A stretch of DNA of 64,000 nucleotides from Desulfomicrobium macestii (GTDB lineage Bacteria > Desulfobacterota > Desulfovibrionia > Desulfovibrionales > Desulfomicrobiaceae): positions 1 through 64,000 of the forward strand of contig NZ_JADBGG010000004.1 of assembly GCF_014873765.1 (NCBI RefSeq), read 5' to 3'. The notes beneath the pieces were generated by a model. That model was not told where the DNA came from. It made no database searches and was given only the letters and a program-made list of their open reading frames with translations. The translations under genes and the position numbers were made by a program. The first letter of the stretch is position 1, and each line of letters begins with the position of its first letter. Shown piece by piece: positions 1,548-38,144 of this stretch.

Positions 1548-1754
1548 TTATAGTGCGAATTCAATTTAAAATTGAATGAATTCAAATAAATAGATTTTTG
1601 TGCTTCGATTCGTTCGCGAAACACAAAACGGCTTCACCTGCTTCCTTTCCAGCGCAAAATTCCTGGGTTCGGGATGCCGCCCGTCAGGTTTGTTCATCTT
1701 CTTCCATCCCTTGAAATACCCCACGCCCTTCAGCACGGACCGCGCATGAGCCGT

Positions 1755-2669: not shown

Positions 2670-3083
2670 CTGGCACCTCCGCAGGGCGTACCGTAGATGC
2701 ACCAACGGCGGCTGTAAAGAAGGATTGCATAGGACCGAAACGTCCTGTCTTTTCATTTTTTTTTGGCGTCGCTCCGCCTTTCAGATTTTTTTTCTGGCCA
2801 GAAGCATCACGTGCATCTATGCTTTTGAAGCCTTTTCATCGATACATTCATCCGGGTACGCTTGATGATGGCCTATCCGGGCGCAGAGTCCGCTTCAGGT
2901 GTGCAGAATTCGTGGGTGTCGCCATTTTGTGCAGGGCTCTTGTGCAATTTGTTGCGTGCATTAATCGTATAAAAATAGTCCGATTTAAATGTTTTGAGCT
3001 ATTTTCATGAAATCATGGGGCTTATGAGTTCAAGCATGGCAGTTGCTTATGTTTTGCCGAGATTATTATGCCGGAGGTTCATG
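2670..3083. other. Intergenic region upstream of the efflux operon
   Basis: This 414-bp stretch separates the minus-strand permease from the plus-strand efflux operon. It contains T-rich runs near 2755-2795 and an A/T-rich segment around 2960-3000 that probably carries the operon promoter. No pair of hexamers at good spacing and no clear metal-regulator palindrome was found. No gene is supported here. Confidence 0.5.
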
Positions 3084-4451
3084 ATGAGGATGTCCCTGAC
3101 CCGCCTGGCCGTTTGGGGCCTTGCCGCGGTGCTGGTCTTTGCGGGCAAGGCCGCGTTCGCGGACGAGTGGCCGGAGCAGAGCGTTCTGCACGGTTATCTG
3201 GAGGAGGGCGCGCGGGCCAATCCGGGTCTGCAGGCCGCCTTCGCTCGCTTCGAGGCCGCCCTGGACAAGGTGCCCCAGGCCCGGGCCTGGCCCGATCCGA
3301 GGCTGTCTTTCGGCGTCTTCACCGTGCCCGTCGAGACGCGCACCGGGCCCCAGCGCATGCGTTTCGGCGTGGCGCAGATGCTGCCGTGGTTCGGCAAGCG
3401 CGACCTCAAGGCCACCATGGCCGAGCGCGAGGCCGCGGCCCTGCTGGCCCAGGCCCAGAGCGCCAAGCTGACACTTTTCCGCGAGATCGGGGCCGCCTAT
3501 TTCGAGTACGCCTATCTGGGCAAGGCGCTTGATTCCGCGCGGGAAGAGCTTGAAATATTGAAATATTTCGAAGCACTGGTGGAGACCCGGTACGCCGTGT
3601 CCAGCGCCTCCTACGCGGATTTCACCCGCGTCCAGGTGGAGCGGGCCAAGGTCGAGGAGCGCGTCGCTTCCCTGAACGATTACCGGTTTCCCCTGTCCGA
3701 GCGCCTGCGCACCCTGCTGGGCAGGCCCGCCGGGGAGATACTGCCCATGCCCGGCAGCGTCCCGCTCATGGACACGAATTGGGATGACGGCCGGATCACC
3801 TCGGCCATCACGGAACACAACCTGGCGCTGGCCGCCCTCGACGCCAAGGCCGAAGCAGCCGATGCGGCCGCGGATCTCGCACGCAGGGAGTTCTTTCCGG
3901 ACCTGACCGTGGGGCTGGAGTCCATCTACACCGACGCCCCGCGCATGGCCGGGGTGGTCAACGAGGGCAAGGACCCAGTGGCCATCACCTTCGGCATCAA
4001 CCTGCCCTTCGACCAGGAGGCGCGGGAGGCGGCGGTGCGGCAGGCCAAAAATTCCGCCCGGGCGACGCGCCTGGAGCGGGCGGACAAGGTCGCGGGCCTT
4101 GAGGCCCAGGCCAGCAGGCTGCTCTTCGGCGTCCGCGACGGGTCCAGGCGCCTTGAGCTTCTGTCCGGAACCATCGTGCCCAAGGCTCGGCAGAACCTTG
4201 ATGCCTCCATGGACGCGTACCAGGCGGGCAAGGCCTCCATGCTGGACCTGCTGACCGCCGAGAAGACGCTCATCGAACTTGAACTGCAGTACCACCGGGT
4301 GCTGACGGACCAGGCCGTGCGCCTGGCCGATCTCGACGTCCTGGCCGGGGAGGAGATTCCCCGCACATTTTCGAGGACCCCGGCTTTGGCCGGGGAAGAA
4401 CAGGCCCGCGACCTGCGGGTCTCCCTGACCAAACCCGAAGCCTCCAAGTGA
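3084..4451 (+). CDS. TolC-family outer-membrane efflux channel (CusC-like)
   Basis: GGAGG at 3073-3077 supports a start at 3084, giving 455 residues; ATGs at 3081 and 3090 are alternatives. The N-terminus is a signal peptide (MRMSLTRLAVWGLAAVLVF, cleavage after AFA). Two long helical repeats follow, with the alternating Ala/Glu/Arg-rich pattern of outer-membrane efflux proteins, and WPDPRLSFGVF near the start of the mature protein. It should form the outer-membrane duct of the tripartite pump encoded downstream (adaptor at 4768, pump at 6888). The spacing to the next gene is 16 bases, so it is the first gene of the operon. Confidence 0.85.
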   Translation: MRMSLTRLAVWGLAAVLVFAGKAAFADEWPEQSVLHGYLEEGARANPGLQAAFARFEAALDKVPQARAWPDPRLSFGVFTVPVETRTGPQRMRFGVAQMLPWFGKRDLKATMAEREAAALLAQAQSAKLTLFREIGAAYFEYAYLGKALDSAREELEILKYFEALVETRYAVSSASYADFTRVQVERAKVEERVASLNDYRFPLSERLRTLLGRPAGEILPMPGSVPLMDTNWDDGRITSAITEHNLALAALDAKAEAADAAADLARREFFPDLTVGLESIYTDAPRMAGVVNEGKDPVAITFGINLPFDQEAREAAVRQAKNSARATRLERADKVAGLEAQASRLLFGVRDGSRRLELLSGTIVPKARQNLDASMDAYQAGKASMLDLLTAEKTLIELELQYHRVLTDQAVRLADLDVLAGEEIPRTFSRTPALAGEEQARDLRVSLTKPEASK

Positions 4452-4467
4452 GGCAAGGAGAACCATC

Positions 4468-4749
4468 ATGAAAAAGCTCATTCTGCTCTGCGCGGCCGCC
4501 ACCGTCTTCGCCTTCCTGTCCCTGTCCCCGGCCTGGGCCGCGCCCCAGACCGAATGCCCTGTCATGGGCGGCGCCATCAACAAGGAACTCTATGTGGATT
4601 ACAAGGGCGAGAGGGTGTATTTCTGCTGCGCGGGATGCCCCGAGACCTTCAGGAAAAATCCCGAGAAGTACATGAAGAAGCTCAAGGCCGAAGGCGTCGA
4701 GCTGGAAAAGGTCCCGGCCGAAGCCGCTCCGGCGGAAAAGAAACAGTAA
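4468..4749 (+). CDS. Secreted YHS-domain metal-binding protein
   Basis: The 93-residue protein has a signal peptide (MKKLILLCAAATVFAFLSL, ending AWA) followed by one YHS domain. The domain shows the key pattern: TECPVMGG, a YVDYKGERVYFCC strand, AGCPETF, and a lysine-rich tail. YHS domains bind heavy metals through their cysteines. Its position between channel and adaptor suggests it picks up metal in the periplasm for the pump, as small soluble metallochaperones do in other Cus systems; that role is inferred. Confidence 0.8.
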   Translation: MKKLILLCAAATVFAFLSLSPAWAAPQTECPVMGGAINKELYVDYKGERVYFCCAGCPETFRKNPEKYMKKLKAEGVELEKVPAEAAPAEKKQ

Positions 4750-4767
4750 ACCTTCTTCGAGGGATGC

Positions 4768-6885
4768 ATGAACGCGACACTCAGGAAATACGCGGTGTGG
4801 GCCACGGCCGGATGTCTTCTCGTGGTCCTCGGCCTTGGCGGGGGGTACCTCCTGTGGGCGCCTCCAGGGTCCGGGCATGACGGACACGACCATGCCGGAC
4901 AGGAGACCGCCGAAGGCGCGCCCGCCGCGTCCCTGTGGACCTGCTCCATGCATCCCCAGATCAAGCTGCCCGAACCCGGGCAGTGCCCCATTTGCTTCAT
5001 GGACCTCATTCCCCTGGCCATACCGGACGGCGAGGACCGGCGGACGAGCCTGCGCCAGCTGAGCCTTTCCCCGGACGCGGCCCGGCTGGCGGGCATCCGG
5101 GTGGAAGCGGCGCGCCTGGCCGAGGTCTCCGTGCAGACCCATCTCTTCGGCAAGGTGGCCTACGACGAATCGCGCGTGGGCGTCATCACGGCCTGGGTCG
5201 GCGGTCGCATCGACAGGCTGCACGTGGACACGACCGGTGCCGTGGTCCGGGCCGGGCAGGCCATGGCCCTCGTCTACAGCCCCGAGCTGGTGGCGGCCCA
5301 GGCCGAACTCATCCAGGCCGTGCGGGCCCGCGAGCGCATGTCGGGCGGCAGCCGTCTGGTCGCGGACTCCGCCCTGCGCATGGAGAACGCCGCCCGCGAG
5401 AAGCTGCGTCTGCTGGGCATGGGCAAGGCGCAGATCGAAGGCATGGTCAAGCGCGGAACCCCGGCGGACCATGTCACCCTGACCGCGCCGCAGTCGGGCA
5501 TCGTCATCGAGAAGAAGGTCGTGGAAGGCATGTACGTGCAGACGGGCATGCCCATCTATGCCGTGGCGGACCTCTCGCGGGTCTGGGTGGTGCTTGAGGC
5601 CTACGAATCGGACCTGGTCTGGATGGCCCCCGGCAAAGACGTGGCCTTCAGGGTCGAGGCCCTGCCGGGGCAGGAGTTCACGGGCAAGGTCGTGTATGTG
5701 GGCACGTCCGTGAACCCGGCCACGCGCACCGTGGAGGTGCGGGTGGAGGTGCCCAACCCCGGGCTGGCGCTGAAGCCCGGCATGTTCGTCAGCGCGATGC
5801 AGCAGGACGGGGCCGCGCAGCGGCCGCGCGAGCTGGTCATCCCGGCCTCGGCCCCGCTCATCACCGGGAAGCGCGCCGTGGTGTACGTGGCCGACCCGGA
5901 TCGGCCCGGCGTGTACGAGGGCCGGGAGGTGGTGCTCGGGCCCCGGACCGACCAGGGCTACGTGGTCCGCGGCGGCATCGCCGAGGGCGAGCTGGTGGTG
6001 GTGCAGGGCAATTTCCGCATCGACGCGGCCCTGCAGATCGTGGCCCGGCCGAGCATGATGAACCCGGCCGAGGCCCCGGCCGCGAGCGGGGTGCGCTTCG
6101 CCGACGTGCCGCAGCCCTTCAGCGTCCGCCTGGCGGCCCTGGCCCAGCGCCTCGGGGCCGTGGAGGAATCCGTGGCCGCGGGCGGCCTGGACGCTGTGCG
6201 CGGCGCGTACCATGATTTCGGCAAGGCCCTGAACGGCGTGGACGCCGACGCCCTGGACGGCGAGGCGGCCCTGGAATGGAAGGAGCTGTCCATGCTCCTG
6301 GGGAACGACGCCCTGCTGGGTTACGAGTCCCCGACCCCGCGCCGCGCCGCCCAGGTGCTGGACGACATGCGCGGGCATTTCGCCCGGGTCCGGGCCGCGT
6401 TCCCCCTGCAGGAGCTCACGGCCAAGATCGAGGCCCCCGCCGGGTTGCGCAGCGCCCTCGACGCCCTGTACGCCGCCTATATTCCGGTACAGGAAGCCCT
6501 GGCCGGCGATGACGCGAACACGGCCCACGCGGCTCTCGTCCTTTTCAGGCAGGCCCTCGGGCAGGCCAACGAGAGCGCTCGCGCCGAGGGCGGTGAAGCA
6601 TGGTCCGGGCATTCGGCGGCCATCGCTTCGGGCCTCGACGAGATGGAGCAGGCCGCCGAAATGGACGGCCTGCGCGCCGGGTTCTACCCCCTGTCCGTGG
6701 CCATGTCCCGCATGGTGGAAACCTACGGCGCAGGGCAAGGGCCGGTCTACGAACTCTACTGCCCCATGGCCTTCGGCAACCAGGGCGCGACATGGCTGCA
6801 GGGTGATCCGAAGGTCAACAACCCCTATTTCGGGGCCGCAATGCTGCGTTGCGGCGAGGTCAAACGCCAGCTGAGGGGCGAGTAG
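4768..6885 (+). CDS. cusB: CusB-like periplasmic adaptor with metal-binding end domains
   Basis: This 705-residue membrane-fusion protein has an N-terminal membrane anchor (residues 8-30), a His-rich linker (GHDGHDH), then a heavy-metal-binding domain at about 57-82 (TCSMHPQI, CPICFMDL). The lipoyl and beta-barrel core of RND adaptors follows (GGRIDRLHVDTTGAVVRAG; LTAPQSGIVIEKKVVEGMYV). From about residue 470 there is an extra DUF3347-like region ending in LYCPMAFGNQGATW. Ordinary CusB is about 400 residues; the extension is a second putative metal site. It stops two bases before the pump gene. Confidence 0.88.
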   Translation: MNATLRKYAVWATAGCLLVVLGLGGGYLLWAPPGSGHDGHDHAGQETAEGAPAASLWTCSMHPQIKLPEPGQCPICFMDLIPLAIPDGEDRRTSLRQLSLSPDAARLAGIRVEAARLAEVSVQTHLFGKVAYDESRVGVITAWVGGRIDRLHVDTTGAVVRAGQAMALVYSPELVAAQAELIQAVRARERMSGGSRLVADSALRMENAAREKLRLLGMGKAQIEGMVKRGTPADHVTLTAPQSGIVIEKKVVEGMYVQTGMPIYAVADLSRVWVVLEAYESDLVWMAPGKDVAFRVEALPGQEFTGKVVYVGTSVNPATRTVEVRVEVPNPGLALKPGMFVSAMQQDGAAQRPRELVIPASAPLITGKRAVVYVADPDRPGVYEGREVVLGPRTDQGYVVRGGIAEGELVVVQGNFRIDAALQIVARPSMMNPAEAPAASGVRFADVPQPFSVRLAALAQRLGAVEESVAAGGLDAVRGAYHDFGKALNGVDADALDGEAALEWKELSMLLGNDALLGYESPTPRRAAQVLDDMRGHFARVRAAFPLQELTAKIEAPAGLRSALDALYAAYIPVQEALAGDDANTAHAALVLFRQALGQANESARAEGGEAWSGHSAAIASGLDEMEQAAEMDGLRAGFYPLSVAMSRMVETYGAGQGPVYELYCPMAFGNQGATWLQGDPKVNNPYFGAAMLRCGEVKRQLRGE

Positions 6886-26457: not shown

Positions 26458-28095
26458 TCAGGCCAGGATCTTGCGCGCGATTTCGTCCTGTACGTCGGTA
26501 ATGAACCGGATGCCGGTCTCGTGCGCGGTTTCGCGGTTGGCGGAGACGATGTCCCCTCGGGTGATCTCGGTGACCGAGAATTTGCGTGCACCGGCCAGGA
26601 GCTGCTGCAGGCCCGCGCCGAGCTTGTCGGCCAGGGTCCAGGCGGCGATGGCGCCGTAGGGCACGGTCTTCATCTCGTCGGCTCCGATCTTGGCCTTGAG
26701 GGACTCGTAGCCGGCAAAGATCTGCTCGGGGCTTTCGCCGATGTCGCGCACGGTCTTGGGCAGGGTGTCCCAGTTGCCGGCGACTTTTTCCTTGCGTTCG
26801 GGATTCAGCGCGCCTTCGATGTTGGAGCCCAGGAAACCTGGGATCATGAGGGTGCGGCCCATGCAGATCAGTTTGACGAAGGGGGCGCCCAGGGCCAGGG
26901 CCTTGAAGATGTGGTCTTCGCGGGCCAAGCCGCCGGCAAAGGACATGTCCACGACCTTCTTGCCCTGGGAGGCCAGGATGTTGCCGTACTCAATGGCCTT
27001 GGCGTGCAGCAGGACGGAGGGCACGCCCCAGGTCTCCATCATGTTCCAGGGGCTCATGCCCGTGCCGCCGCCGGAACCGTCGATGGTCAGCAGGTCGAGA
27101 TTGGCGTCGGTGGCATACTTGATGGCCATGGCCAGGGCTTCCATGCCATAGGAGCCGGTCTTGAGCGAGATCTTGGTGTAGCCGAGCCCGCGCAGGTAGG
27201 CCACAGTTTCCATGAAGTTCTGGTGCACGGCATCGGAGGACGGCAGGTCGGTGTAGCCCAGGCGGCTGTGACGGGCAAAGCCCTTGATGGCTCCGGCCTT
27301 GAATGCTTCCTGCACTTCGGGAAGTTCCGGGTCCGGATCGACCAGGTAGCCGCGCTTTTTCAGGAACAGGGCGTAGTCCAGGCTCGTGACCTCGATCTCG
27401 CCGCCGATGTTCTTGGCACCCTGGCCCCATTTGAGCTCGATGCAGACCTTGTTGCCGTACTTTTCGATGACGTATTCGGCCACGCCGTTGCGCGCGTCCT
27501 CGACGTTGAGCTGCACGATCATGGTGCCGTAGCCGTCGGAGTAGCGGTTGTAGATCTCGATGCGGCGGTCCAGTTCCGGGGATTTCTCGATGCGGCCGCC
27601 GGACATGCTGGAGGCGCGGTCCACGCCGACCACGTTTTCACCGACCACGATCGGGATGCCGACCAGAGCGCAACCGGCGGCAAAGGAGTCCCAGTATTTG
27701 GCGGCGATGAAGGTGGAACCCAGGGCGCCGGTCATGAGCGGCATGCGCACCTTGGTCTTTTCCGTGGCGCCGAAGGACGTTTCCAGGGAGACGTTGGTGA
27801 AGAGACAATCATCGGGATTGGTGGTGCGCCCTGCGGCGACGCCCTGGGCACCGTAGCTGAAACCCTGGATGCGCAGGGAATTGTAGCTCACGCCGACATG
27901 ACATGTATTCGCGCTGCCGGCGGTGACGGAGCCGAAATCCCGGGGATAGAGCATGTGCCGCCCCTTGAGGCAGGACATCCAGGTTTCACATTTTCCGGCA
28001 CAGTCCGAGCGGCATAACGTGCACAGGCCGGATTCGGCCGGGTTTCCGCGGTTGGTGGTGCCGAGAACATCGTTGCTTTTGGGCCATTGGATCAT
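26458..28095 (-). CDS. FMN-binding glutamate-synthase-like oxidoreductase
   Basis: The 545-residue protein has an N-terminal cysteine cluster (CTLCRSDCAGKCETWMSC, residues 25-42) that could bind an Fe-S centre. The body is the FMN/Fe-S domain of glutamate synthase (LKWGQGAKNIGGEI, TIDGSGGGTGMSPWNMM, then DMSFAGGLAREDH and KLICMGRTLMIPG). It lacks the amidotransferase domain, so it is of the archaeal/GltB2-like stand-alone type. In the family it passes electrons to 2-oxoglutarate/glutamine conversion; the actual substrate here is untested. A hairpin lies in its leader at 28149. Confidence 0.85.
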   Translation of the reverse strand: MIQWPKSNDVLGTTNRGNPAESGLCTLCRSDCAGKCETWMSCLKGRHMLYPRDFGSVTAGSANTCHVGVSYNSLRIQGFSYGAQGVAAGRTTNPDDCLFTNVSLETSFGATEKTKVRMPLMTGALGSTFIAAKYWDSFAAGCALVGIPIVVGENVVGVDRASSMSGGRIEKSPELDRRIEIYNRYSDGYGTMIVQLNVEDARNGVAEYVIEKYGNKVCIELKWGQGAKNIGGEIEVTSLDYALFLKKRGYLVDPDPELPEVQEAFKAGAIKGFARHSRLGYTDLPSSDAVHQNFMETVAYLRGLGYTKISLKTGSYGMEALAMAIKYATDANLDLLTIDGSGGGTGMSPWNMMETWGVPSVLLHAKAIEYGNILASQGKKVVDMSFAGGLAREDHIFKALALGAPFVKLICMGRTLMIPGFLGSNIEGALNPERKEKVAGNWDTLPKTVRDIGESPEQIFAGYESLKAKIGADEMKTVPYGAIAAWTLADKLGAGLQQLLAGARKFSVTEITRGDIVSANRETAHETGIRFITDVQDEIARKILA

Positions 28096-28148
28096 CGTTT
28101 TCGTCTCCCGTATGCAAATTTGAGTGTATATTTCCCCTGAACGCGGAC

Positions 28149-28183
28149 GTCACCACGAAGGCGGTCTGACCTTGCGTGGTGAC
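28149..28183 (-). promoter_or_regulatory. Leader hairpin upstream of the glutamate-synthase-like gene
   Basis: GTCACCACG (28149-28157) and CGTGGTGAC (28175-28183) are perfect 9-bp inverted arms, extended by AAGG/CCTT. It sits about 55 bases upstream of the gene. It could be an operator or a leader RNA structure. The rest of 28096-28452 has no gene and no other clear signal; 28453 is the stop of the next gene on the minus strand. Confidence 0.45.
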
Positions 28184-28452
28184 GCTGCACATCTGTCCGG
28201 ACCTGGGCCCGGCGACGCTGACGCATGAAGAAATTCAATAGATTATCTATGGATATGGAAAGGTCGTGTCGATAGGATCCGCGCCCGATTTTCTGGTCAT
28301 TTTAAACCACAGGAGCGGGCATTTTTCCCAAATTAAGGGCAAGTATCCCAGGCATCGTTGCCGGGCGGCATCCGAGGGCATGACGTGCACAGGCGGGTGG
28401 GGCATGGGACTGGCGACGTGTCCAGTGCTGTGCGGGAGGGCGGGCAACCTGC

Positions 28453-31011
28453 CTAGTGGTAGTCGCCGGCCATGAAGTTGTCGGCCATGGCCATCACGGC
28501 GGCTTCGCTGGTCATGAGCATGTCCATCTGCCGGGTGACGATGAGCAGGCGGCCCAGCTGGTCCAGGCGTTCACGGGTATCTTCCCGCGAGAATTTCTGG
28601 AACCGGGCCTGGGTCATGTCGCCGCGCACGTCGGTGGTGAAGCCCAGGCGGCTCAGGATCAGGGCGATGCAGCGCACGCGGCGTTCGCGGCGGATCTCGT
28701 CGGCGGCCCCGCCCTTGAACTGGAAGGTGATGTAGTTCTTGGACACGGTCTCGCCGCAGTAGGCGTCCACGACGCTGTAGTGGTAGCCCACGCGCGAGCT
28801 GAAGTTCAGGTAGGTGTCGGAGACGATGCCGTAGCTGCGTTCGCCGAAGCGCTGGGCCTGGACCGTCGGGGGTTCGAGCATGTGCTGGGTCATGACCGAG
28901 AGGAAACCGCCAACGTCGATGGGGCGTGGTCCGCGAACGTGGACCTCGGGGCGCAGCATCCCGGACAGGAGGGCGGCCAGGGGTGCCGAGGTGACCTGTT
29001 CGGGAAATACGTATGGGCCGTAGACGTCCCTCAGCCCTCCGCCGAGGTCGATGAGGTGCAGGTCGATGGGCAGTTTGGCCTTGAGCTGGCAGGAAACGGC
29101 ACCGGCGTCCGAGGCCCGGTCGCTGATGCGAAACATTTCCGTGTAGCAGAGTTCGTGCACGAAGCGCATGACGTCGTGCAGGGTGGTGCAGGACTCGGGT
29201 TTGAAGACCGGCGACTTCGGGTCGAGCAGGTGCAGGGGGACGATCTGGTCGGCGACCTGACGCAGGATGGCGTGCACCGGGGAATCGGCGATTCTGAAGC
29301 GCTGCGCCGACTTGAAGGTCATGAGTTCGGGGACGACCCCGGCATAGACCCGGCCGGTGATGGCGTCCACGGTCAGGGTCTGTCCGTCGAGGATTTTCGT
29401 GCTGGCGAGCCTGGCGTTGAGGATGGTCGGGACATCGAACTCGCGTGCCAGGGAAGCCATGTGCCCGGTGATGCTGCCGGCCTCGGTGACGATGGCCTGG
29501 GCGCGGTTCATGACCAGGACGTAGTTGGGGAGCGAGTGGGGTGCGATGAGGATGCCGCCCTCCGGAAAATCGGCGAGATTGTCGAGGTTTTGAGCCAGGA
29601 CGGCCTGTCCCGAGCCGATGCCGGCGCAGGCGATGTCCGCCTGGTCGATGAGCAGCTGCGCGCCTTCGATGGCGGTGGTAGCCAGGCCGTTGTGGTGGGC
29701 GTGGGCCAGCCGCATGGGCCTGCTTTGCAGGATCATGATCCGCCCGTCCCGGTCCAGGGCCCACTCGATGTCCTGAGGATGGTGGTAATGTCCTTCCAGA
29801 CGGGACGCGATGGCTGCAAGCTCCAGGACCTGCGCGGTGCTCAGGCAAGGCGCGGTGCGCAATGCCTCCGGAACCGCCTCCTCATGCTTGCCTGAGGAGT
29901 CGGAGACGAGGCGCACCCGTTTGTCGGCGACATGCTGCATAGCGATATGGGGGACGGGTCCCGGCCTGACGTGCCAGGTGTCGGGCTCGATGATCCCGTC
30001 CACGGCATAGGCCCCAAGGCCCCAGATGGCATTGAGGACCATTTCGTCGGACAGGGGGTTCACGGGGTGGCGCGAGAAGATGATTCCGCTGGCCAGGGCG
30101 TCCACCATTTCGATACAGGCCATGCCCATGGCGCAGTGCTCGAAGGACACGCCGTGATGGATGCGGTAGGTGATGGCGCGGGGCGAGAAGAGGCTGGCGA
30201 GGACCTCGCGGAAGGCGTTCTCCAGTGTTTCCCGCGTGACGCCGAGGATGGTCCTGTATTGTCCGGAGAAGGAGAGGATGCCGTCCTCGCCGATGGCGCT
30301 GGAGCGCAAGGCCGCCCGGGTTGATGCGGGATCGGCAAAGCTCTGGTCCCAGGCGTCCAGGATGTCGCGCATGACGTCTTCGGGGACGCCGACACGGTTG
30401 ATGGTCCTGAATATGGCCTCGGACGCGGCGACCACGGTGGCGGGGGCGTCCGCCCTGGCTTCGCGGAGCTGCTTCAAAATTTCATCCCGCAGACCCTCGC
30501 CGCGCAGAAAAGCTTCGTAGGCGGCCGTGGTAATCGCGAAACCGGCCGGAGTGGGGATGTTTGCGCGATTGCGCATTTCTCCGAGGTTTGCGCATTTGCC
30601 GCCGACGACATCCACCAAGCCTTTGTTCACGGCCGACAGGGGAAAAGTGTATTCCGTGATGACGGGCTGGGGTTTGCTGTCCAGGATGGCGCTGATGCGG
30701 GCGTTGATGTGTTCCACCATGGCCGGCAGCGTGCCATAGCGGTCTCCCGAGATGGCGTTCAGGGAGGTGACCATGCGCATGGTGTGGAAGACGCTTCTGG
30801 TGGCCAGCGCCCGGATCTCGTTCATTCCGAACAGGGCCGCCCCTTTCAGCTTCTCGTCGATCTCCGCCATGATCGTGCCGAGTTCCGCATTGGACAGGAG
30901 CAGGTCCTTGAAATGCGTGTATTGCAGGCGGAAGGAACGCAGCACGGCTTCGTTCTCCTGCCCGGCTTTTTTTTGGGGGAGCAGTGCCTGGATCAGATCC
31001 CGGAATCCCAT
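28453..31011 (-). CDS. PEP-synthase-like protein with an unusual C-terminus
   Basis: The 852-residue protein has a helical N-terminal domain (1-115), a PPDK/PEP-synthase ATP-grasp domain (about 115-450; VVGGKCANLGEM, LRSSAIGEDG, MACIEMVDALASGI) and a swivelling phosphohistidine domain (TEAGSITGHMASLAREF, His present). The usual PEP/pyruvate-binding TIM barrel is replaced by a ~290-residue region with no recognised motif. It therefore may phosphorylate something other than pyruvate, or serve as a regulator. It lies 22 bases after the sigma-54-type regulator gene and is probably co-transcribed with it. Confidence 0.75.
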   Translation of the reverse strand: MGFRDLIQALLPQKKAGQENEAVLRSFRLQYTHFKDLLLSNAELGTIMAEIDEKLKGAALFGMNEIRALATRSVFHTMRMVTSLNAISGDRYGTLPAMVEHINARISAILDSKPQPVITEYTFPLSAVNKGLVDVVGGKCANLGEMRNRANIPTPAGFAITTAAYEAFLRGEGLRDEILKQLREARADAPATVVAASEAIFRTINRVGVPEDVMRDILDAWDQSFADPASTRAALRSSAIGEDGILSFSGQYRTILGVTRETLENAFREVLASLFSPRAITYRIHHGVSFEHCAMGMACIEMVDALASGIIFSRHPVNPLSDEMVLNAIWGLGAYAVDGIIEPDTWHVRPGPVPHIAMQHVADKRVRLVSDSSGKHEEAVPEALRTAPCLSTAQVLELAAIASRLEGHYHHPQDIEWALDRDGRIMILQSRPMRLAHAHHNGLATTAIEGAQLLIDQADIACAGIGSGQAVLAQNLDNLADFPEGGILIAPHSLPNYVLVMNRAQAIVTEAGSITGHMASLAREFDVPTILNARLASTKILDGQTLTVDAITGRVYAGVVPELMTFKSAQRFRIADSPVHAILRQVADQIVPLHLLDPKSPVFKPESCTTLHDVMRFVHELCYTEMFRISDRASDAGAVSCQLKAKLPIDLHLIDLGGGLRDVYGPYVFPEQVTSAPLAALLSGMLRPEVHVRGPRPIDVGGFLSVMTQHMLEPPTVQAQRFGERSYGIVSDTYLNFSSRVGYHYSVVDAYCGETVSKNYITFQFKGGAADEIRRERRVRCIALILSRLGFTTDVRGDMTQARFQKFSREDTRERLDQLGRLLIVTRQMDMLMTSEAAVMAMADNFMAGDYH

Positions 31012-31033
31012 GATGCAGTCTCCCGGATGCAGG

Positions 31034-33613
31034 TTATGGAGTACGGACGGCCACCACGTACCGCGAGGACGGGCCCTTGCCGGTTTTCTTCAGCAAGCCC
31101 TTGTTGACCAGATCCTGCAAATCGTATTGCGCGGTTCTGACCGAAATCTCCTCCCCGACGGCGCTTTCATACAGAGCACGGTTCGTGCCACCATTGGCGG
31201 CAATCGAGGGCCAGGCCTTGACTTGCCGCGGGTTCAGGGTGGCCAGGACCGCCTCGGGCAGTGCGGACGACGTGTGCGCGGAGGGGCTTGGCGGCCCTTC
31301 CGGCGTTGTCGTGGCGAGCGGTTCCGGGCTGCTCCCGTTTCTTGAACCGGCCGGAGTCTTGGCCTGGACTGCAGGACCCTGGGCCGTGGCTGGCTCCGAT
31401 GCGGGTCCGGCTGCGCGGTTCTGACCGAACTCGATGTGGTCCGCCAGCAGGAGGTTGCCTTCGGCAAAGGTCATGGCGCGGGTGATGCAGTTCTTCAATT
31501 CGCGGATGTTTCCCGGCCAGTCGTGCTGCAGCAGCTTGTCCAGGGCACCGCGGCTGATGTCCGGCGGAGTCGTGCCCCGGGTGTGCTCACGCATGAACGA
31601 GCGGACCAGGGCGGGGATGTCCTCCCTGCGATCGCGCAAGGGTGGGGTCGAGATGGTGATGACGGCCAGCCGGTAGTAGAGGTCTTCGCGGAACTTCCCG
31701 TTGCGTGCGGATTCAAGCAGGTCGACGTTGGTGGCGGCCACGACGCGCGCGTCGAAGGGCTGGTCCTGATCGCTACCCAGGGGACGGATTCTGCGCGCCG
31801 CCAGGGCGCGCAACAGGGACTGCTGCACCTTGGGCGATGCGTTGCCGATTTCGTCGAGGTGCAGCGTGCCGCCCGAAGCGGCGAGGAATGCGCCTTTGCG
31901 GTCCGTCTTGGCCTCGGAGAATGCGCCCTTCACGTGTCCGAAGAGCGCGTCCATGAGCAGGTTTTCGTCCAGCGCGCCGCAGTTGATGGAAATGAAGGGG
32001 CCTGTGGCGCGGGTGCCGGCGCGGTGGATCGCTTCGGCCGTGAGCTCCTTGCCCGTGCCGGTTTCACCGATGATCAGCACGTCGGCCATGACCTGGGCCG
32101 CCTTGTGGATCATGGCGTTGAGGTTGCGCACCGCCTGGCTCGAACCCACGATGCCGAAGGCCTTCTCTGCGCAGCGTGACGACTCTTTGCTTGAGGCGTT
32201 TTCCGCCAGCGCATCGAGGCTGACTGGCTGGCGCTGCATCTCGTCGAAGATCAGGCCCTGGCGGATTCGGGTCTCGTTGCGGGCCGTCTGCAGCTGCAGC
32301 AGAAGAATGTTGATGACGTGCTGGAGGTGACGCAGCTCCTTGGGCAGCGGAGCCAGTTCCAGGGTGGCGGCATCGTCGCCCATGGCTATTTGTTCCGTGG
32401 CGGAAGCCAGTCTCTTCAGCGGGTTGCTGATCCTTCGATTGAGATAAACGAACGCCGCGATGGTGAGCAGGAGCGCCACGAACCAGGATATGCCGAGGGC
32501 CATGGCCACTTCATAGCGCGAGGCCTTGAGCATGAAGCTTGTGTCGATGCACCCGATCCCTCCGAGGATGACCGGATTTCCCGTGGCCTCCTCCTGGAAA
32601 CGGATTGGAACATAATAGAGGTAATGGTCTCCGCCGGTGTTGCTTGGGTCGTTCAGGAAGTTCGCAAATCCGATCTCGCCGTCTTTACCGGCCTGCACGG
32701 CGGATACCACAGCCCAGTATTTCTCGTATTGCGGATTCGGCCGGAACGCGGTCGCGAATCCCGGTCGGCCGAGATCGCCCTGCAGACCCGTGCGGATGTC
32801 GTCGATGGAGATTTTGAGGTGCGGGTTGCCGGCCTGCCCCGTCTCGCAGATGAGCCATCCCGCTGCGTCGAAGAAAAAGCTCCTGACCTGCTCCTTTTCC
32901 TGGGGGAAGATGTAGAGAGGCGACTGCCTGGAGGAGAAGGTGGTCATGATCCGCTGAATCTCGATGATATCGACGGACAATGTCAGGTATCCCCGGAATC
33001 TCTTTTCCGCGTCCAGCACCGGCGTGCTCAGCCTGATGACCGAGAACTCGATGTTCTCAACGGAGCCCAGGTACGGAACCGACGTGTAGTAGGCCTGCAC
33101 GGGCTGTTCGATCTGCACGAAGTCCTCGATCTTGCCCCCGATCCTCTCCCTGCGCGTGAAGGCGCCGAACTTGACGCCCGCGGCCTGCTCGTCCGGAACC
33201 TTCCAGACCTTCTCCCCCGTGTTCAATAGGACGTAGTTGTCCTGTGGCGCAGTGCCGTGAAATGCGATTTCGCAGTATTTGTTCCGCTTTGTCGCGGGTT
33301 TGTCCATCATGTATTTCTGGATGGCCTGGGCCGAGACATCGGAGCGCGCCAGATTCTGGATTTCATAGCGCGCGTCCTTGAGCAGCTGCTGCAGCTCGTG
33401 GGCCTGGGCCAGCGCCCTGGTGTGAGCGTTTCGCGCGTAGGCGCGATTCAGGTAGTGGGAGGAGATCCGGTAGGTCGAGACGGTCATGACCAAGAGCACG
33501 CCGGCCACCAGCGGCGTGCCCAGAAGCAGGAGGATGCGGGTTATACTCCATTCCTTCACGGGTTTTTCGAGGTTGAGCACCGGGTCGAGCGTGGGGGGGT
33601 AGGAGTAGGGCAT
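31034..33613 (-). CDS. Membrane-bound sigma-54-type activator with periplasmic Cache sensor
   Basis: The ATG at 33613 (GGAGG seven bases before) gives 859 residues. Order: TM1 (about 25-47), a long periplasmic Cache-like region, TM2 (about 365-387), a HAMP-like linker, then a sigma-54 AAA+ domain with GETGTGKE near 516 and FDEIG-type Walker B (LHLDEIGN). The sigma-54 contact loop reads GAFSEA, not GAFTGA. The C-terminus is not a Fis helix-turn-helix but a winged-helix-like domain (about 790-859, SVRTAQYDLQDLVNKGLLKK). It faces the TauE operon with a -24/-12 promoter, its likely target. Confidence 0.88.
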   Translation of the reverse strand: MPYSYPPTLDPVLNLEKPVKEWSITRILLLLGTPLVAGVLLVMTVSTYRISSHYLNRAYARNAHTRALAQAHELQQLLKDARYEIQNLARSDVSAQAIQKYMMDKPATKRNKYCEIAFHGTAPQDNYVLLNTGEKVWKVPDEQAAGVKFGAFTRRERIGGKIEDFVQIEQPVQAYYTSVPYLGSVENIEFSVIRLSTPVLDAEKRFRGYLTLSVDIIEIQRIMTTFSSRQSPLYIFPQEKEQVRSFFFDAAGWLICETGQAGNPHLKISIDDIRTGLQGDLGRPGFATAFRPNPQYEKYWAVVSAVQAGKDGEIGFANFLNDPSNTGGDHYLYYVPIRFQEEATGNPVILGGIGCIDTSFMLKASRYEVAMALGISWFVALLLTIAAFVYLNRRISNPLKRLASATEQIAMGDDAATLELAPLPKELRHLQHVINILLLQLQTARNETRIRQGLIFDEMQRQPVSLDALAENASSKESSRCAEKAFGIVGSSQAVRNLNAMIHKAAQVMADVLIIGETGTGKELTAEAIHRAGTRATGPFISINCGALDENLLMDALFGHVKGAFSEAKTDRKGAFLAASGGTLHLDEIGNASPKVQQSLLRALAARRIRPLGSDQDQPFDARVVAATNVDLLESARNGKFREDLYYRLAVITISTPPLRDRREDIPALVRSFMREHTRGTTPPDISRGALDKLLQHDWPGNIRELKNCITRAMTFAEGNLLLADHIEFGQNRAAGPASEPATAQGPAVQAKTPAGSRNGSSPEPLATTTPEGPPSPSAHTSSALPEAVLATLNPRQVKAWPSIAANGGTNRALYESAVGEEISVRTAQYDLQDLVNKGLLKKTGKGPSSRYVVAVRTP

Positions 33614-33681
33614 TTCTGTCCTCCGGGTTGTCGCTGGATTATCGCGAAATATTTTTGCGTATAGTGTCCTCTTGTGAAAAA

Positions 33682-33757
33682 TTGCGCAACAAGAATGTTC
33701 AATCACTTGAAATACAGGGCAAAATTCATGCGTGATCGCCTTGGCTCGTCCTTTGCT
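33682..33757 (+). promoter_or_regulatory. Sigma-54 promoter of the TauE operon with an upstream palindrome
   Basis: TGGCTCGTCCTTTGCT (33742-33757) matches the sigma-54 consensus closely: GG at 33743-33744 and GC at 33755-33756, 10 bases apart, with TTTGC at -12. Upstream lies the palindrome TTGCGCAA (33682-33689), flanked by CTTGT/ACAAG arms, which could be the activator site. The divergent activator gene begins at 33613. The first operon gene starts at 33903. Confidence 0.75.
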
Positions 33758-33902
33758 ATTTTGGCTACAGATGCGTGATTAACCCGTTGAATTTGCATGA
33801 CGGGAAGAACTTCTGAAACGAAACGGCAGGGGAGAGGTCCGGGCTGGAAGCCTTGAATGAGGCTGAGGCCGGACCGGGGAAGCAAACATTCTGGAGGTTA
33901 TG

Positions 33903-34202
33903 ATGAAAGCAAGATTGAACAGGCTCTGGTGGTCACTGATGGCAATGGTCCTGCTGTGTCCCGGTTTCGCCCTGGCGGCCGGCGGTGGAGGCGCGGCCCC
34001 CATCGTGCTGGTGGCGGACACCCGGAAGCTGACCGGGATTCTGGCTTGGTGGGCCAATCTGTACAATGAGAGTCATTTTCAGTTCATGATCCTGACGGTC
34101 GTCCTGATCCCGATCACTGGCGTGGTGTTCGGTGTCCTGGCCGACATCATCATGAGCTGGATCGGCATCGACCTGAAGTCCCGCAATCTGGCGGAACACT
34201 AA
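33903..34202 (+). CDS. Small secreted/membrane protein linked to TauE
   Basis: Two adjacent ATGs exist (33900, 33903); the second is better placed after GGAGG and gives 99 residues. A signal-like helix (LWWSLMAMVLLCPGFALA) is followed by a Gly/Ala segment and a second membrane helix (FMILTVVLIPITGVVFGVLADIIM). It is the first gene of the sigma-54-driven operon, 30 bases before the exporter gene. It may be an exporter subunit; no family function is known to me. Confidence 0.7.
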   Translation: MKARLNRLWWSLMAMVLLCPGFALAAGGGGAAPIVLVADTRKLTGILAWWANLYNESHFQFMILTVVLIPITGVVFGVLADIIMSWIGIDLKSRNLAEH

Positions 34203-34232
34203 ACCGTACACCATCGACCAAGGAGATAAACC

Positions 34233-35288
34233 ATGGATTGGCTCTATGTCCTCATGCCCATCGCAGGCGTTAAAATTTTCTGGCCCGGCCTCATTATCCT
34301 CGGAGTCGGCGTCGGCATCATCGGCGGTTTCTTCGGCATGGGCGGGGCGTGGATGGTCACGCCCGGTCTCAACATTCTCGGTTTCCCCATGGCCTTCGCC
34401 ATCGGCACCGACATCGCGCACATGGCGGGCAAGTCTCTCATTTCCACCATGCGCCACGGCAAGTTCGGCAACGTCGACTACAAACTGGGTCTGATCATGC
34501 TGGTGGGCACCGTGGTCGGCTTCGAGGCCGGGGCCCAGATGGTCATGTGGCTGGAACGCATCGGCAGTGTCGAGAAGGTCGTGCGCTGGATCTACATCGT
34601 GCTTCTGGCCTTCATTGCCTGGATGGTCTTCCATGATGTCGCCAAGCGCAAGGCCAAGGAGCGCGCGGCCCTCGCCCGCGGCGAGAAGCTGACCGGCCTT
34701 GAGACCGGCGTCGAGTGGCACAAGGCTCTCCACAAGATCAAGATTCCCCCGATGGTTCACCTGAAGGAAGCCGGCATCTACTGTTCCGCCTGGCTGCCCA
34801 TCTTCGTCAGCTTCTTCACCGGCTGGCTGGCCGGCATCCTGGGCATCGGCGGCGGTCTGATCCGCATGCCCGCCCTGATCTACATGATCGGCTGTCCGAC
34901 CCATGTCGCCGTCGGCACCGACCTCTTTGAAGTGGCCATCTCCGGCCTTTACGGCGCGGCCACCTACACCTGGAAGGGCCGCACCGAGCTCGTCGCCGCC
35001 ATGATCATGCTGGTCGGCGCCGCCATGGGCGCCCAGGTCGGCGCCGTGGCCACCAAGTACATCAAGGGCTATGGCATCCGCATCGCCTTCGGCCTGGCCG
35101 TCATCGGTTGCGCGGTGTCCATCCTGCTCAAGCTGGTCCAGCCCTGGCTGCCCGCCTACAAGAACCTGCTCAATAATGCGTCGACGGTCCTGGTCCTCGG
35201 CTTGGTGAGCTGCATGTCCATCTACATCTTCGTGCGCATGGTCCAGGGCGTTAAGATGGAACTGGCTGCCAAGAACCGCAGGAACTAG
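34233..35288 (+). CDS. TauE/SafE-family sulfite/anion exporter
   Basis: The 351-residue membrane protein has the two TauE/SafE half-repeats: GGFFGMGGAWMVTPGLNILG with GTDIAHMAGKS, and later GILGIGGGLIRMPALIYMIG with VGTDLFEVA. The long loop between halves (about 140-180, KRKAKERAALARG) is cytoplasmic and basic. Family members export sulfite, sulfoacetate or similar anions. In a sulfate reducer, removal of excess sulfite is an attractive but unproved role. It lies between a small membrane protein and a DUF4881 lipoprotein. Confidence 0.87.
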   Translation: MDWLYVLMPIAGVKIFWPGLIILGVGVGIIGGFFGMGGAWMVTPGLNILGFPMAFAIGTDIAHMAGKSLISTMRHGKFGNVDYKLGLIMLVGTVVGFEAGAQMVMWLERIGSVEKVVRWIYIVLLAFIAWMVFHDVAKRKAKERAALARGEKLTGLETGVEWHKALHKIKIPPMVHLKEAGIYCSAWLPIFVSFFTGWLAGILGIGGGLIRMPALIYMIGCPTHVAVGTDLFEVAISGLYGAATYTWKGRTELVAAMIMLVGAAMGAQVGAVATKYIKGYGIRIAFGLAVIGCAVSILLKLVQPWLPAYKNLLNNASTVLVLGLVSCMSIYIFVRMVQGVKMELAAKNRRN

Positions 35289-35313
35289 CCCGCAATCAGA
35301 TAAGGAGTTGAAC

Positions 35314-35925
35314 ATGAATACCAGACGCATACTGCTCGGACTCGCCATCGCGCTGCTGACCTTCGGTGTCCTTGGGTGCGATGAATACGGCAAGGTGGAT
35401 CAGGGACGGGTCATCGCCTTCGACAAGGACAAGCAGACCGTGACCGTGATCCAGGACAAGGCCATGGATTCCCAGAATCCCGACTATTCGATTCTGCCTC
35501 CGCACACGTACAAGATGCCTACGGATCCGGCCGAGCGCGGCGCGGACCCCAAGGCCGGGTATCGCATGAAGCTGGACGTGGACAAGAAGGTCATCCGCAT
35601 CTTCAATCCCAACAACCAGGCCCTTGAAGATCTGCCCATCACCATCGTGGACGTGCAGAAGGACATCGCCAAGGACCACCCCCTGGTTTTCGACAAGGAC
35701 AAGAACGTGGCCAAGAAGTTCCCCGTGGTCGATCAGGACAATAAGACCGTCACCGTCTATTCAGGTCGCCAGAAGATGCTCGCCACCTTCAGCGTGCCTG
35801 AAGAGTACTTCGGGTTTCCCGAGAGCACCTGGGACGCCGGCGACGAGGTGCGGGTGTACTACAAGACGGAAGGCGAAGCCATCCGCTTCATGAACGTCAG
35901 CAAGACCGACATCTTCAAGAAGTAA
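35314..35925 (+). CDS. DUF4881 lipoprotein
   Basis: AAGGAG at 35302-35307 selects the ATG at 35314, giving 203 residues. The N-terminus is a lipoprotein signal (LLTFGVLGC, Cys about residue 22). The rest is a beta-rich domain with repeated VIAFDKDKQTVTVIQDK-type hairpins, matching DUF4881, a family of unknown function. Such proteins accompany TauE genes in sulfate reducers. It is probably anchored at the outer leaflet of the inner membrane or at the outer membrane. Confidence 0.75.
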   Translation: MNTRRILLGLAIALLTFGVLGCDEYGKVDQGRVIAFDKDKQTVTVIQDKAMDSQNPDYSILPPHTYKMPTDPAERGADPKAGYRMKLDVDKKVIRIFNPNNQALEDLPITIVDVQKDIAKDHPLVFDKDKNVAKKFPVVDQDNKTVTVYSGRQKMLATFSVPEEYFGFPESTWDAGDEVRVYYKTEGEAIRFMNVSKTDIFKK

Positions 35926-35997
35926 AGCCTCGGGGATGCGCGGGGTGGACAACCGCCCTCCTGGACGTCCCGCGCATCCCCCTTTAAGGAGTCCGAC

Positions 35998-36231
35998 GTG
36001 AGCGAATACAGATTTTTCCTGCTGCACAAGATCCTCGTCCTGTCCATCAACGCCCTGGTTCTCGGGGCGCTGACCGTTGCCATGTACATGGCCGCGCAGA
36101 ATCCCGAGGAGTTCACCCTTGTCTTCCTCAGGGTTTTCGGGAGCCTGCTGCTGCCCATCATTGTCCTGGGGTTCGCGGCCAAGCGGAAGCTGCGGCGCAG
36201 CGCGGATTCCATGTGCGGAGATGCGGCGTGA
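35998..36231 (+). CDS. Small two-helix membrane protein
   Basis: A GTG start at 35998 with AAGGAG before it gives 77 residues with two membrane helices (KILVLSINALVLGALTVAMY; FLRVFGSLLLPIIVLGFAAK) and a basic tail. It overlaps the next gene by four bases (GTGA), implying coupled translation. No family is recognised. It probably forms a complex with the membrane protein encoded next. Confidence 0.65.
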   Translation: MSEYRFFLLHKILVLSINALVLGALTVAMYMAAQNPEEFTLVFLRVFGSLLLPIIVLGFAAKRKLRRSADSMCGDAA

Positions 36232-37028
36232 TCCGTGCCCAGCGGATCTGGCGCCTCCAGCGCGCCAGCGGCACCGTGGCCATGATTCTGCTGGTCCTGA
36301 CCCTGCTGATCCTTTTCGACGGCCTGCGCGGCGGAATTTTCGGTGGATCGGGGCAGGTGCGACTCATCCCGGGTGAACGCTACGTGGTGAGCGGCCCCAT
36401 GCCTCCAAAGACCGAGCGGATCAGGGATTTCGTGATTGAGGGCGGCGCCTTCGACGGCTCCCTGCGCCTGGTGCCCGAAGCCGTTTTCACGGGCTATCTC
36501 TTCGGCGGTGGCATGTGGCGCGGATATTTTGAAGTCAGTCCCGTGCCGCGCCCCGGAACCTACGTGTTCAAGGTCCGCGACAGGTTTGGGGAAAAGCAGA
36601 ACCCGGCCCTGGTCTTCACCGTCCGCGTCTTCGCCAGCGCCAAGGCCAGGCAGGCCGATTCCCCCTCCCTCGTGACACGCTGGACCGCGGCCGACCCATT
36701 GATAGTGGCCGCAGTGCTTGGTTTTTTCGGACTTGCGACAGCCGGCGGCAATTACCTGCTGGGCAGGAAGTGGCATGAACTGCTTGCGGAGCACGGGTGT
36801 GGGGAGATATTCAGACTGCGGAAGATCGACGGATACCTGGAAGCGGAAGTGGAGATGCGCTCGTGCTCAAGCGTGGAGGAAGGTGCGCCGTTCAGGTTCA
36901 CGCATCCCCTGCGCGGCGACCTCGGACAGGGGACGGTGCTGTCCTGCGACCGCAATGAAATCAGAATACGGATTCCCGCGGATTCGCCCGTGCGGCTGGG
37001 CGACATCGCCTGTCCCGCTCAGGCATGA
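36228..37028 (+). CDS. Membrane protein of unknown function
   Basis: The GTG at 36228 overlaps the previous stop. The 266-residue protein has an N-terminal membrane helix (VAMILLVLTLLILFDGL), a ~130-residue beta-rich periplasmic domain (VRLIPGERYVVSGP, FEVSPVPRPGTYVFKV), a second helix (PLIVAAVLGFFGLATAGGNY) and a cytoplasmic beta-rich end. The periplasmic part could be a ligand-binding domain. It belongs to the TauE operon and precedes a receiver protein by 15 bases. Confidence 0.65.
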   Translation: MIRAQRIWRLQRASGTVAMILLVLTLLILFDGLRGGIFGGSGQVRLIPGERYVVSGPMPPKTERIRDFVIEGGAFDGSLRLVPEAVFTGYLFGGGMWRGYFEVSPVPRPGTYVFKVRDRFGEKQNPALVFTVRVFASAKARQADSPSLVTRWTAADPLIVAAVLGFFGLATAGGNYLLGRKWHELLAEHGCGEIFRLRKIDGYLEAEVEMRSCSSVEEGAPFRFTHPLRGDLGQGTVLSCDRNEIRIRIPADSPVRLGDIACPAQA

Positions 37029-37043
37029 TCCCATGGAGAGGCC

Positions 37044-37442
37044 ATGAGTTCTCTTGAAGACTGCAAGCTCTTGTTTGTGGATGACGAGGAAGAGTTTCTG
37101 GGCACCATGGCCAAGTACCTGCGGCGCAAGAAGCTCGACGTGGCCACGGCGTCCTCGGGCCGGGCAGGCCTGGACTGGTTCGGGAATCACTCCGTTGACA
37201 TAGTGGTCCTGGACATGAAGATGCCGGACCTGGGCGGGATCGAGGTGCTGCGGGAGATGCGCCGACTGAAGGGCGAGGATTTCGGGGTGATCATCCTGTC
37301 CGGTCACGCCCATACGGGCTTGGCCCTGGAAGCCATGCGCGCTGGCGCCGACGACTTTCTGCTCAAGCCCTGTTCCGTGGAGAATCTTCTGGAGCGCATC
37401 GACCTGCTCCGCGATCGCCTGCTTGAGCGCCGCAGCGCATGA
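37044..37442 (+). CDS. Stand-alone receiver-domain protein
   Basis: The 132-residue protein is one CheY-like receiver: LFVDDEEEF acidic pocket, phospho-acceptor in VVLDMKMPDLGG, Thr/Ser position in IILSGHAHTG and Lys in DDFLLKPCS. There is no output domain. As the last gene of the TauE operon it may link the exporter to a kinase located elsewhere, or act by protein contact. A terminator follows at 37464. Confidence 0.85.
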   Translation: MSSLEDCKLLFVDDEEEFLGTMAKYLRRKKLDVATASSGRAGLDWFGNHSVDIVVLDMKMPDLGGIEVLREMRRLKGEDFGVIILSGHAHTGLALEAMRAGADDFLLKPCSVENLLERIDLLRDRLLERRSA

Positions 37443-37463
37443 ATCCCGGACTCCGGAAATGAA

Positions 37464-37487
37464 AAAACCCTCGGTGACGAGGGTTTT
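37464..37487. terminator. Bidirectional intrinsic terminator
   Basis: A 10-bp perfect stem AAAACCCTCG/CGAGGGTTTT with a GTGA loop, flanked by A and T runs, separates the TauE operon from the convergent mucR gene. It should work in both directions. Confidence 0.85.
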
Positions 37488-37492
37488 CTGCG

Positions 37493-37897
37493 TTACGCGG
37501 GGGTCTTGACGGCCTTCTTGCGCTTTTCCCAGAGCTTCATGCCCTGCATGGTCTTGCGACGGTCGCGGGCCAGGGACTTGGCGACCAGGGAAGTGCCCTT
37601 CTTGTAGCCGTACTTTTCGCGGTACTCTTCGGGGGTCAGACCGTGGGTAGCCAGGTGGCGCTTAGTCAGGACCTTGAAGGACTTGCCGCATTCGCAGCAG
37701 ATGACGCTCTTTTCACGGATGGCGTTCTTGGGATCCACGGCGGGTTCAGTGTCGACAACGGGGACAACGCCTTCGGCGACACCACGGATGCTCTGCGTCA
37801 GGGCGCGGATCATTGAGGTGATTTCGTCTTCGTTCATGTTGCGGACAGAAGCCTGGGCCTTCACGATTTCGATTGCTTGCTTCAGATAATCTTCCAT
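37493..37897 (-). CDS. MucR/Ros-family transcriptional regulator
   Basis: The 134-residue protein has a helical N-terminal oligomerisation region (residues 1-40) and the Ros/MucR zinc finger (SVICCECGKSFKVLTKRHLATH) followed by LTPEEYREKYGYKKG. MucR proteins bind AT-rich DNA, often in multimers, and control envelope, motility and virulence genes. It has its own promoter at 37913-37940 in an AT-rich upstream region, suggesting autoregulation. Confidence 0.9.
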   Translation of the reverse strand: MEDYLKQAIEIVKAQASVRNMNEDEITSMIRALTQSIRGVAEGVVPVVDTEPAVDPKNAIREKSVICCECGKSFKVLTKRHLATHGLTPEEYREKYGYKKGTSLVAKSLARDRRKTMQGMKLWEKRKKAVKTPA

Positions 37898-37912
37898 TTT
37901 TACTCCATAGCT

Positions 37913-37940
37913 ATAATAGGGTCATTGATAACGCTGTAAA
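37913..37940 (-). promoter_or_regulatory. Sigma-70 promoter of mucR
   Basis: On the minus strand TTTACA (37940-37935) and TATTAT (37918-37913) are separated by 16 bases; the start codon is 16 bases downstream of the -10. The 302-bp space from 37898 to 38199 holds only this and the yajQ promoter; it is AT-rich compared with the surroundings, in keeping with MucR targets. Confidence 0.6.
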
Positions 37941-38144
37941 CCGTCAGACAAAGTAGCTTACTTCATAGTAGAGAATGATGGAATGTCAAATGCTTTGTTG
38001 ACAATCTGTTATGTCTGCTCCTGATTGCCGGGAGGATCGTTGTGAACGTGTCTGAATCCGTTGAGGAAATATGTGGTTTCCCAAGGTGGTGATTATCTTT
38101 CCGGGGGAATACATTTGTTTGGGAAGCTTGACGACGATGGGATT

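Follow-up and report, generated by a model that had tools for sequence, protein, structure and literature searches.

The regulator encoded at one end of a divergent gene pair in the window, which is the whole 64-kb stretch of DNA analysed here, is a genuine, conserved activator that has been described in part before (Table 1). Orthologous to DVU0151 of Desulfovibrio vulgaris (Hildenborough), it is likely to be a ligand-gated, inner-membrane-anchored one-component sigma-54 activator whose contact loop has been rewired. The core of this finding is already in print as a prediction, because the main text of Kazakov 2015 (PMC4641369) describes DVU0151 as a single-component regulator with the motif GAFSEA and the predicted target DVU0150-DVU0146. 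New here are the dCache and membrane anatomy, the family-wide acidic residue of the loop, a sigma-54 site in 40 of 46 loci, the candidate operator TTGCGCAA, and a clade apparently re-targeted to a sodium:sulfate-symporter-type gene. If the reading is true, a sigma-54 activator would read the periplasm without a kinase and activate from the membrane, the 71 family members would amount to a naturally occurring series of loop variants, mostly with a residue lethal to NorR, and a regulon of sulfate-reducing bacteria would gain a defined target along with a candidate for its operator.

Domain anatomy of the regulator

The minus-strand frame opens with an ATG at 33613, preceded by GGAGGA at 33624-33619 as ribosome-binding sequence, and closes with a stop codon at 31036-31034. 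Since it is open and conserved in relatives, its reading as a degenerate pseudogene was rejected. The observation itself is real: the domain anatomy is confirmed and the family is conserved. A preliminary description of this DNA had named two membrane helices, a HAMP-like linker, GAFSEA in the contact loop and a winged-helix-like end, all of which were recovered, by hydropathy (aa 22-48 and 367-393), by Pfam (HAMP at aa 391-442), at aa 563-568, and by profiles and model (aa 793-855), respectively. Together with the promoter, the synteny and the loop conservation reported below, these domains can be read from the sequence. The protein would thus be anchored in the inner membrane, with aa 49-366 in the periplasm. 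The AAA+ domain matches PF00158 with 199.7 bits against a cut-off of 20.2, and a variable linker separates the end of the lid (aa 729) from the start of the winged helix (aa 793).

Table 1. Features of the regulator locus, with positions in the window
Feature	Position	Strand	Basis
PEP-synthase-like protein, 23 nt after regulator	28453..31011	-	Pfam PPDK_N and PEP-utilizers
Regulator gene (859 aa), one-component sigma-54 activator of DVU0151 type	31034..33613	-	ORF and Pfam
C-terminal winged helix, aa 793-855, replacing Fis helix	31049..31237	-	Profiles and model
AAA+ lid (AAA_lid_14), aa 660-729	31427..31636	-	Pfam PF25601
Sigma-54-activator AAA+ domain, aa 488-654	31652..32152	-	Pfam PF00158 (Sigma54_activat), E 3.4e-59
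GAFSEA sigma-54 contact loop (L1), aa 563-568	31910..31927	-	Sequence, family alignment
HAMP linker, aa 391-442	32288..32443	-	Pfam PF00672
Second membrane helix, aa 367-393	32435..32515	-	Hydropathy
Putative periplasmic double-Cache region, aa 49-366	32516..33469	-	dCache_1 in relatives, Foldseek, VIA-align; low-confidence model
First membrane helix, aa 22-48	33470..33550	-	Hydropathy
Second imperfect palindrome CGCGAAATATTTTTGCG, immediately before regulator gene	33643..33659		Sequence, partly kept in own-genus alignment
Candidate operator TTGCGCAA, 60 nt before -24 element	33682..33689		Enriched, position conserved; predicted
Sigma-54 promoter TGGCTCGTCCTTTGCT for divergent operon	33742..33757	+	TGGC-N7-TTGCW match, conserved
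DVU0150-family small protein, first gene of predicted target operon	33900..34202	+	NCBIfam NF040783, E 7.8e-45
TauE/SafE-type transporter	34233..35288	+	Pfam PF01925, E 5.1e-43
DUF4881 protein, predicted target operon	35308..35925	+	Pfam PF16222, E 2.4e-80
271-aa protein without family, gene order conserved	36213..37028	+	Pfam, synteny

A whole-protein query of 101 genomes returned about 60 full-length relatives, and the family set of 71 members joins 60 from this search with 11 that belong to other families of the phylum. An N-terminal profile, run over 247 genomes of the phylum, matched in 21 of them, exactly twice in the regulator's own. The architecture is not a product of chance, because the 71 members keep the loop and the C-terminal signature, listed exceptions aside. 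By a crude hydropathy rule, 60 of the 71 have two membrane segments and the other 11 have three or four, some of these apparently reflecting a single helix counted as two segments or a start that is too long. HAMP was matched by Pfam in eight of 11 relatives. L058, whose C-terminus is masked, was left out of the tree and the segment counts, and both L058 and L087 out of the invariant count.

The Cache-like periplasmic region, also anticipated in the preliminary description, may be a dCache domain, a weak-to-moderate assignment drawn from profile, Foldseek and VIA-align lines. Nine of 11 relatives match dCache_1 in Pfam at E<=1 (best 1.1e-8), and the match of the regulator alone lies below the Pfam threshold (E 0.0029, 17.6 bits vs a cut-off of 45). 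AlphaFold, run with six sequences, modelled the full-length regulator and its periplasmic part at mean pLDDT of 49 and 51, respectively; blocks in the distal periplasmic part of the former reach 78-85. With the low-confidence full-length model, the first eight Foldseek rows for the periplasmic region were the sensor domains of chemoreceptor TlpA and of CqsR (E from 1.9e-4), and VIA-align gave Z 11.6 against TlpA over aa 63-225, in the membrane-distal half only. The dCache and Cache domains thus filled the Foldseek top eight and the top VIA-align rows, all confined to aa 61-237 of a low-confidence model. The N-terminal profile searched against solved structures matched HAMP only. Such a region would allow the regulator to sense a ligand directly; TauE at most loci and a sodium:sulfate-symporter-type neighbour in one clade suggest, speculatively, that this ligand is an anion.

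At the other end of the protein, the Pfam search of the regulator found no Fis-type helix-turn-helix, and a hidden Fis helix, raised as a concern in the preliminary description, was therefore rejected. Residues 793-855 gave weak single-sequence Pfam matches of winged-helix type, and eight of 16 relatives matched DIP2311-like_C (best 8.5e-7). The modelled C-terminus has H-H-H-E-E secondary structure with block means of pLDDT 59-79. In VIA-align its last 75 or so residues scored Z 8.8 against a Fic-protein domain (Coxiella Fic2, 8cil) and Z 8.4 against RosR; the C-terminal profile searched against solved structures had a Fic protein as best match, at E 0.13.

An acidic residue in the sigma-54 contact loop

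The regulator carries GAFSEA rather than the exact GAFTGA, and the second glycine of that motif is replaced almost throughout the family (E in 54, D in 15, G and A in one each of the 71 members). The commonest motifs are GAFTEA (29), GAFSEA (20), GAFTDG (11) and GAFSDA (3), followed by GAYTEA and GAHSEA (two each) and by WAYTEA, GAYTDG, GAFTAA and GAFTGA itself (one each), so the prospect that homologues would all bear GAFTGA did not materialize. At the same position, 31 other activator segments of the genome have G in 27, S in two, H in one and N in one, and none is acidic. These segments include two proteins twice, in different truncations, with W62 excluded. They derive from the genome's 38 Sigma54_activat matches, of which 32 were covered, in 30 loci and in two parts of the window; row L120 among the loci duplicates the ORF of L103.

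The rest of the loop and the catalytic machinery are kept. Phe or Tyr occurs at the loop aromatic position in 69 of the 71 members and Thr/Ser in all 71, with no loop deletion, while the Walker A GK (K522), Walker B DE (D587-E588) and Arg 642, 648 and 660, the first two of them in the arginine-finger region, are intact in 70 of 70 aligned members. Family-diagnostic changes surround the loop: E554 to M/L, S555 to D, E556 to T/A/S, D/E591 to N/S/T and Q605 to S/A. At Walker A position 523, 29 of 70 members read GKQ for GKE, and in these the DEIG that follows Walker B is often DEIQ. Two members, L082 and L083, have GAHSEA, in which the key Phe of the loop is His, yet the sigma-54 site ahead of DVU0150 in L083 is still perfect.

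Two candidate explanations for tolerance of the acidic residue were rejected. Loss of the E97-R131 pair of PspF (PMC2941729) as its unique partner is not diagnostic: although E577 plus R611, the equivalent pair, occurs in 0 of 70 family members, other activators of the genome also carry P611 (12 of 31 segments) or drop E577 (absent from 13 of 31). Compensation within sigma-54 itself was set aside, the genome having one copy of the sigma-54 gene, rpoN, with a canonical-looking start.

Elsewhere in the window, a sigma-54-type AAA+ protein at 61856-63088 on the minus strand has its loop replaced by GPDGEL and ends without a Fis-like helix; it is probably an activator homolog that has lost sigma-54 contact.

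The divergent operon, its promoter and a candidate operator

The promoter TGGCTCGTCCTTTGCT is the only TGGC-N7-TTGCW match in the window. As 1.5 would be expected, this uniqueness is not striking; its position and conservation are. The 40 loci counted above score at least 13.5 of 15.5 upstream of DVU0150, and six of the 46 lack a good site. Among the first 36 loci, 34 reached 13.5, 32 reached 14.5 and 17 were perfect, whereas shuffles of the same regions did so in 9.6%, 1% and 0.06% of cases, respectively. Repeats of ATGCGTGAT at 33728-33736 and 33771-33779 flank the promoter and are partly kept in the genus. With a conserved divergent promoter of this type, the regulator would activate through sigma-54 from a DNA site of its own, and the one-component activation from the membrane proposed earlier fits both this arrangement and the anatomy.

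The gene run downstream is operon-like and closes with a receiver-only response regulator (37044-37442, plus strand). On the other side, the PEP-synthase-like protein at 28453-31011 has ATP-binding and phosphohistidine domains without the PEP-binding C-terminal Pfam domain and adjoins the regulator in many loci; it is perhaps a phosphotransferase for another acceptor. An Rfam search of 28000-38000 gave no match.

Of 62 loci with enough flanking sequence, 44 have divergent DVU0150 and TauE genes, 11 a CBS gene with a sodium:sulfate-symporter-type gene (PF00939), and seven other neighbours. In the tree, the 11 symporter-linked members group as one clade with support 100, and this clade lies within the TauE-linked members, which suggests that one regulator clade was re-targeted to the symporter-type gene. 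Members with GAFTDG (L042, at 1531-6519 in the same genome, L043-L049, L051, L052 and L055) lie divergent from CBS and the symporter-type gene. Upstream of CBS, 11 of 12 regions, including that of L060 (loop GAFTEA), have NGGCAC-N5-TTG[TA]T, and L051 has TGGTAT-N5-TTGTT; normal sigma-54 sites have TTGC where the promoters of this clade have TTG[TA]T. A GAFTDG clade facing such promoters would fit the doubtful reading, set out below, of a distinct activator class that engages sigma-54 and the -12 region differently. The link between loop and -12 element is not strict, because L050 and L059, which are TauE-linked and carry GAFSEA, likewise have TTGAT.

The palindrome TTGCGCAA is a good candidate for the operator in the regulator's own genus. 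It is the most enriched 8-mer upstream of the promoter, present in 17 of 34 regions against 0.48 expected, a figure that treats related genomes as independent. Its place is constant, 58-61 nt before the -24 element in eight own-genus loci. Followed by a sigma-54 site at 40-70 nt, it occurs once in the 4.5-Mb genome, at the regulator locus, and the same pair stands at this locus in all eight own-genus genomes carrying the TauE-linked gene. Across 101 genomes the pair was matched 36 times against once for the reversed pattern; nine of the 36 lie just upstream of a family gene (eight in the own genus, one in G091) and the rest elsewhere. In the wider set TTGCGCAA is found in 19 of 46 regions and missing from 27, hence it is not a universal operator. 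Several g12 loci carry TTGCGCAAAAAAGCGCAA at a longer distance. The imperfect palindrome CGCGAAATATTTTTGCG is a possible, weak candidate for a second operator. A search with an alternative operator spacing gave no match in the own genome and scattered ones in relatives.

Proposed mechanism and alternative readings

In the mechanism that we propose, the periplasmic dCache domain would recognise either a small ligand or a partner that carries it, and the signal would pass through the second membrane helix and HAMP, upon which the cytoplasmic AAA+ domains would assemble and hydrolyse ATP. With its C-terminal winged helix the regulator would stay on operator DNA, with TTGCGCAA as candidate, beside the promoter. 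The L1 loop, with its fixed acidic tip and remodelled neighbours, would then engage sigma-54 for open complex formation at 33742-33757, and the divergent DVU0150-TauE-DUF4881 transporter operon would be switched on.

The difficulty lies in the contact itself, as a glutamate that inactivates NorR is fixed in the regulator family beside conserved sigma-54 promoters. In mutagenesis of NorR, G266E, at the same loop position, was non-functional (PMC2941729). Contact in the family must therefore work differently or be compensated, and compensation through the remodelled neighbours is plausible. In PspF, according to PMC9770992, the L1 loops follow region I of sigma-54, and one of them sits in the groove downstream of -12. 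The preliminary description had held that GAFSEA makes normal contact uncertain; its doubt about the contact stands in view of NorR, but the conserved promoter argues that dependence on sigma-54 is kept. A stronger version, possible though doubtful, is a distinct class of membrane-tethered activators whose acidic L1 tip functions through a co-evolved neighbourhood and engages sigma-54 and the -12 element differently; it rests on the removal of acids at 554, 556 and 591 and the gain of D555.

Were the glutamate as damaging here as in NorR, the acidic loop would make no productive contact, and the protein might be a sigma-70-type regulator or repressor like TyrR, with the promoter serving another activator. 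TyrR and other homologs with defective loops are named as sigma-70 dependent in PMC3162934, two members lack the loop Phe, and the gene is kept in the six loci without a good sigma-54 site upstream. We nevertheless regard this reading as improbable, given the retained aromatic and Thr/Ser positions, the undeleted loop, the sites upstream of most divergent operons and the fact that NorR G266D still formed open complexes. The opposite reading, an ordinary member of the DVU0151 regulon described in 2015 with an unremarkable mechanism and a neutral loop change, deserves somewhat more credence, at the level of a tentative possibility. The main text of PMC4641369 places GAFSEA among loop variants expected to stay functional and counts close variants as functional, and DVU2106 (GAFTDA in that text) works with sigma-54 RNA polymerase according to PMC3897727. 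Neutrality is hard to square with an acidic residue that is nearly fixed across several families of the phylum (69 of 71 members), and the NorR result opposes it for E, D being better tolerated.

A further reading concerns the input. The dCache domain of a sigma-54 activator could read a periplasmic partner, such as the co-regulated DUF4881 or DVU0150-type protein, rather than the signal itself, and the system would therefore monitor its own transporter. The genes for DVU0150, TauE and DUF4881 accompany the regulator, and the fold matches include the periplasmic domain of LuxQ, which binds LuxP, its partner, in the loaded state (2hj9). However, the symporter clade keeps the sensor, and 10 of its 11 loci are without DVU0150 and TauE in the stretch covered; we consider this reading rather unlikely. 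The ligand-gated, membrane-anchored sigma-54 activator with a rewired loop is retained as our preferred reading.

Comparison with known systems

Our literature search for DVU0145-DVU0151 returned PMC4641369 only, and no experiment on any family member was found. Among the records listed in a second search, aimed at membrane-bound activators of the sigma-54 type that carry Cache or HAMP domains, none describes this architecture. In the main text of PMC4641369 we found no mention of dCache, of membrane anchoring of DVU0151 or of the NorR glutamate result; the supplements may hold a binding motif. That text singles out DVU0151 as the one regulator without a Fis helix, notes that its orthologs, including Dbac_2039, match a winged-helix model, places it divergent from a sigma-54 promoter and calls its N-terminus an unknown sensing domain. 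Compared with this text rather than with the DVU0151 sequence, GAFSEA and the winged-helix C-terminus of our regulator agree, and it likewise lies divergent from a DVU0150-TauE operon (NF040783 and PF01925 genes, 33900-35288). As far as the main text goes, DVU0151 and its orthologs therefore share with it GAFSEA, the absence of Fis, the winged-helix match, the divergent promoter and a DVU0150-led operon.

Other systems resemble the regulator in part. Coxiella Fic2 (8cil) and RosR-type winged helices share the fold of its last 75 or so residues, as a domain match only. In the chemoreceptors and kinases TlpA, Tlp1 and KinD, a dCache domain is placed between two membrane helices. The regulator would have a periplasmic fold of the same type, but its output is a transcription-activating AAA+ domain. 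With the soluble PspF, NtrC, NorR and ZraR it shares an AAA+ domain with all catalytic residues, and it differs from them by its membrane anchor, its acidic loop tip and a winged helix in place of Fis. Canonical activators have E at 554 and 556 and an acid at 591, all of which are lost in the regulator family.
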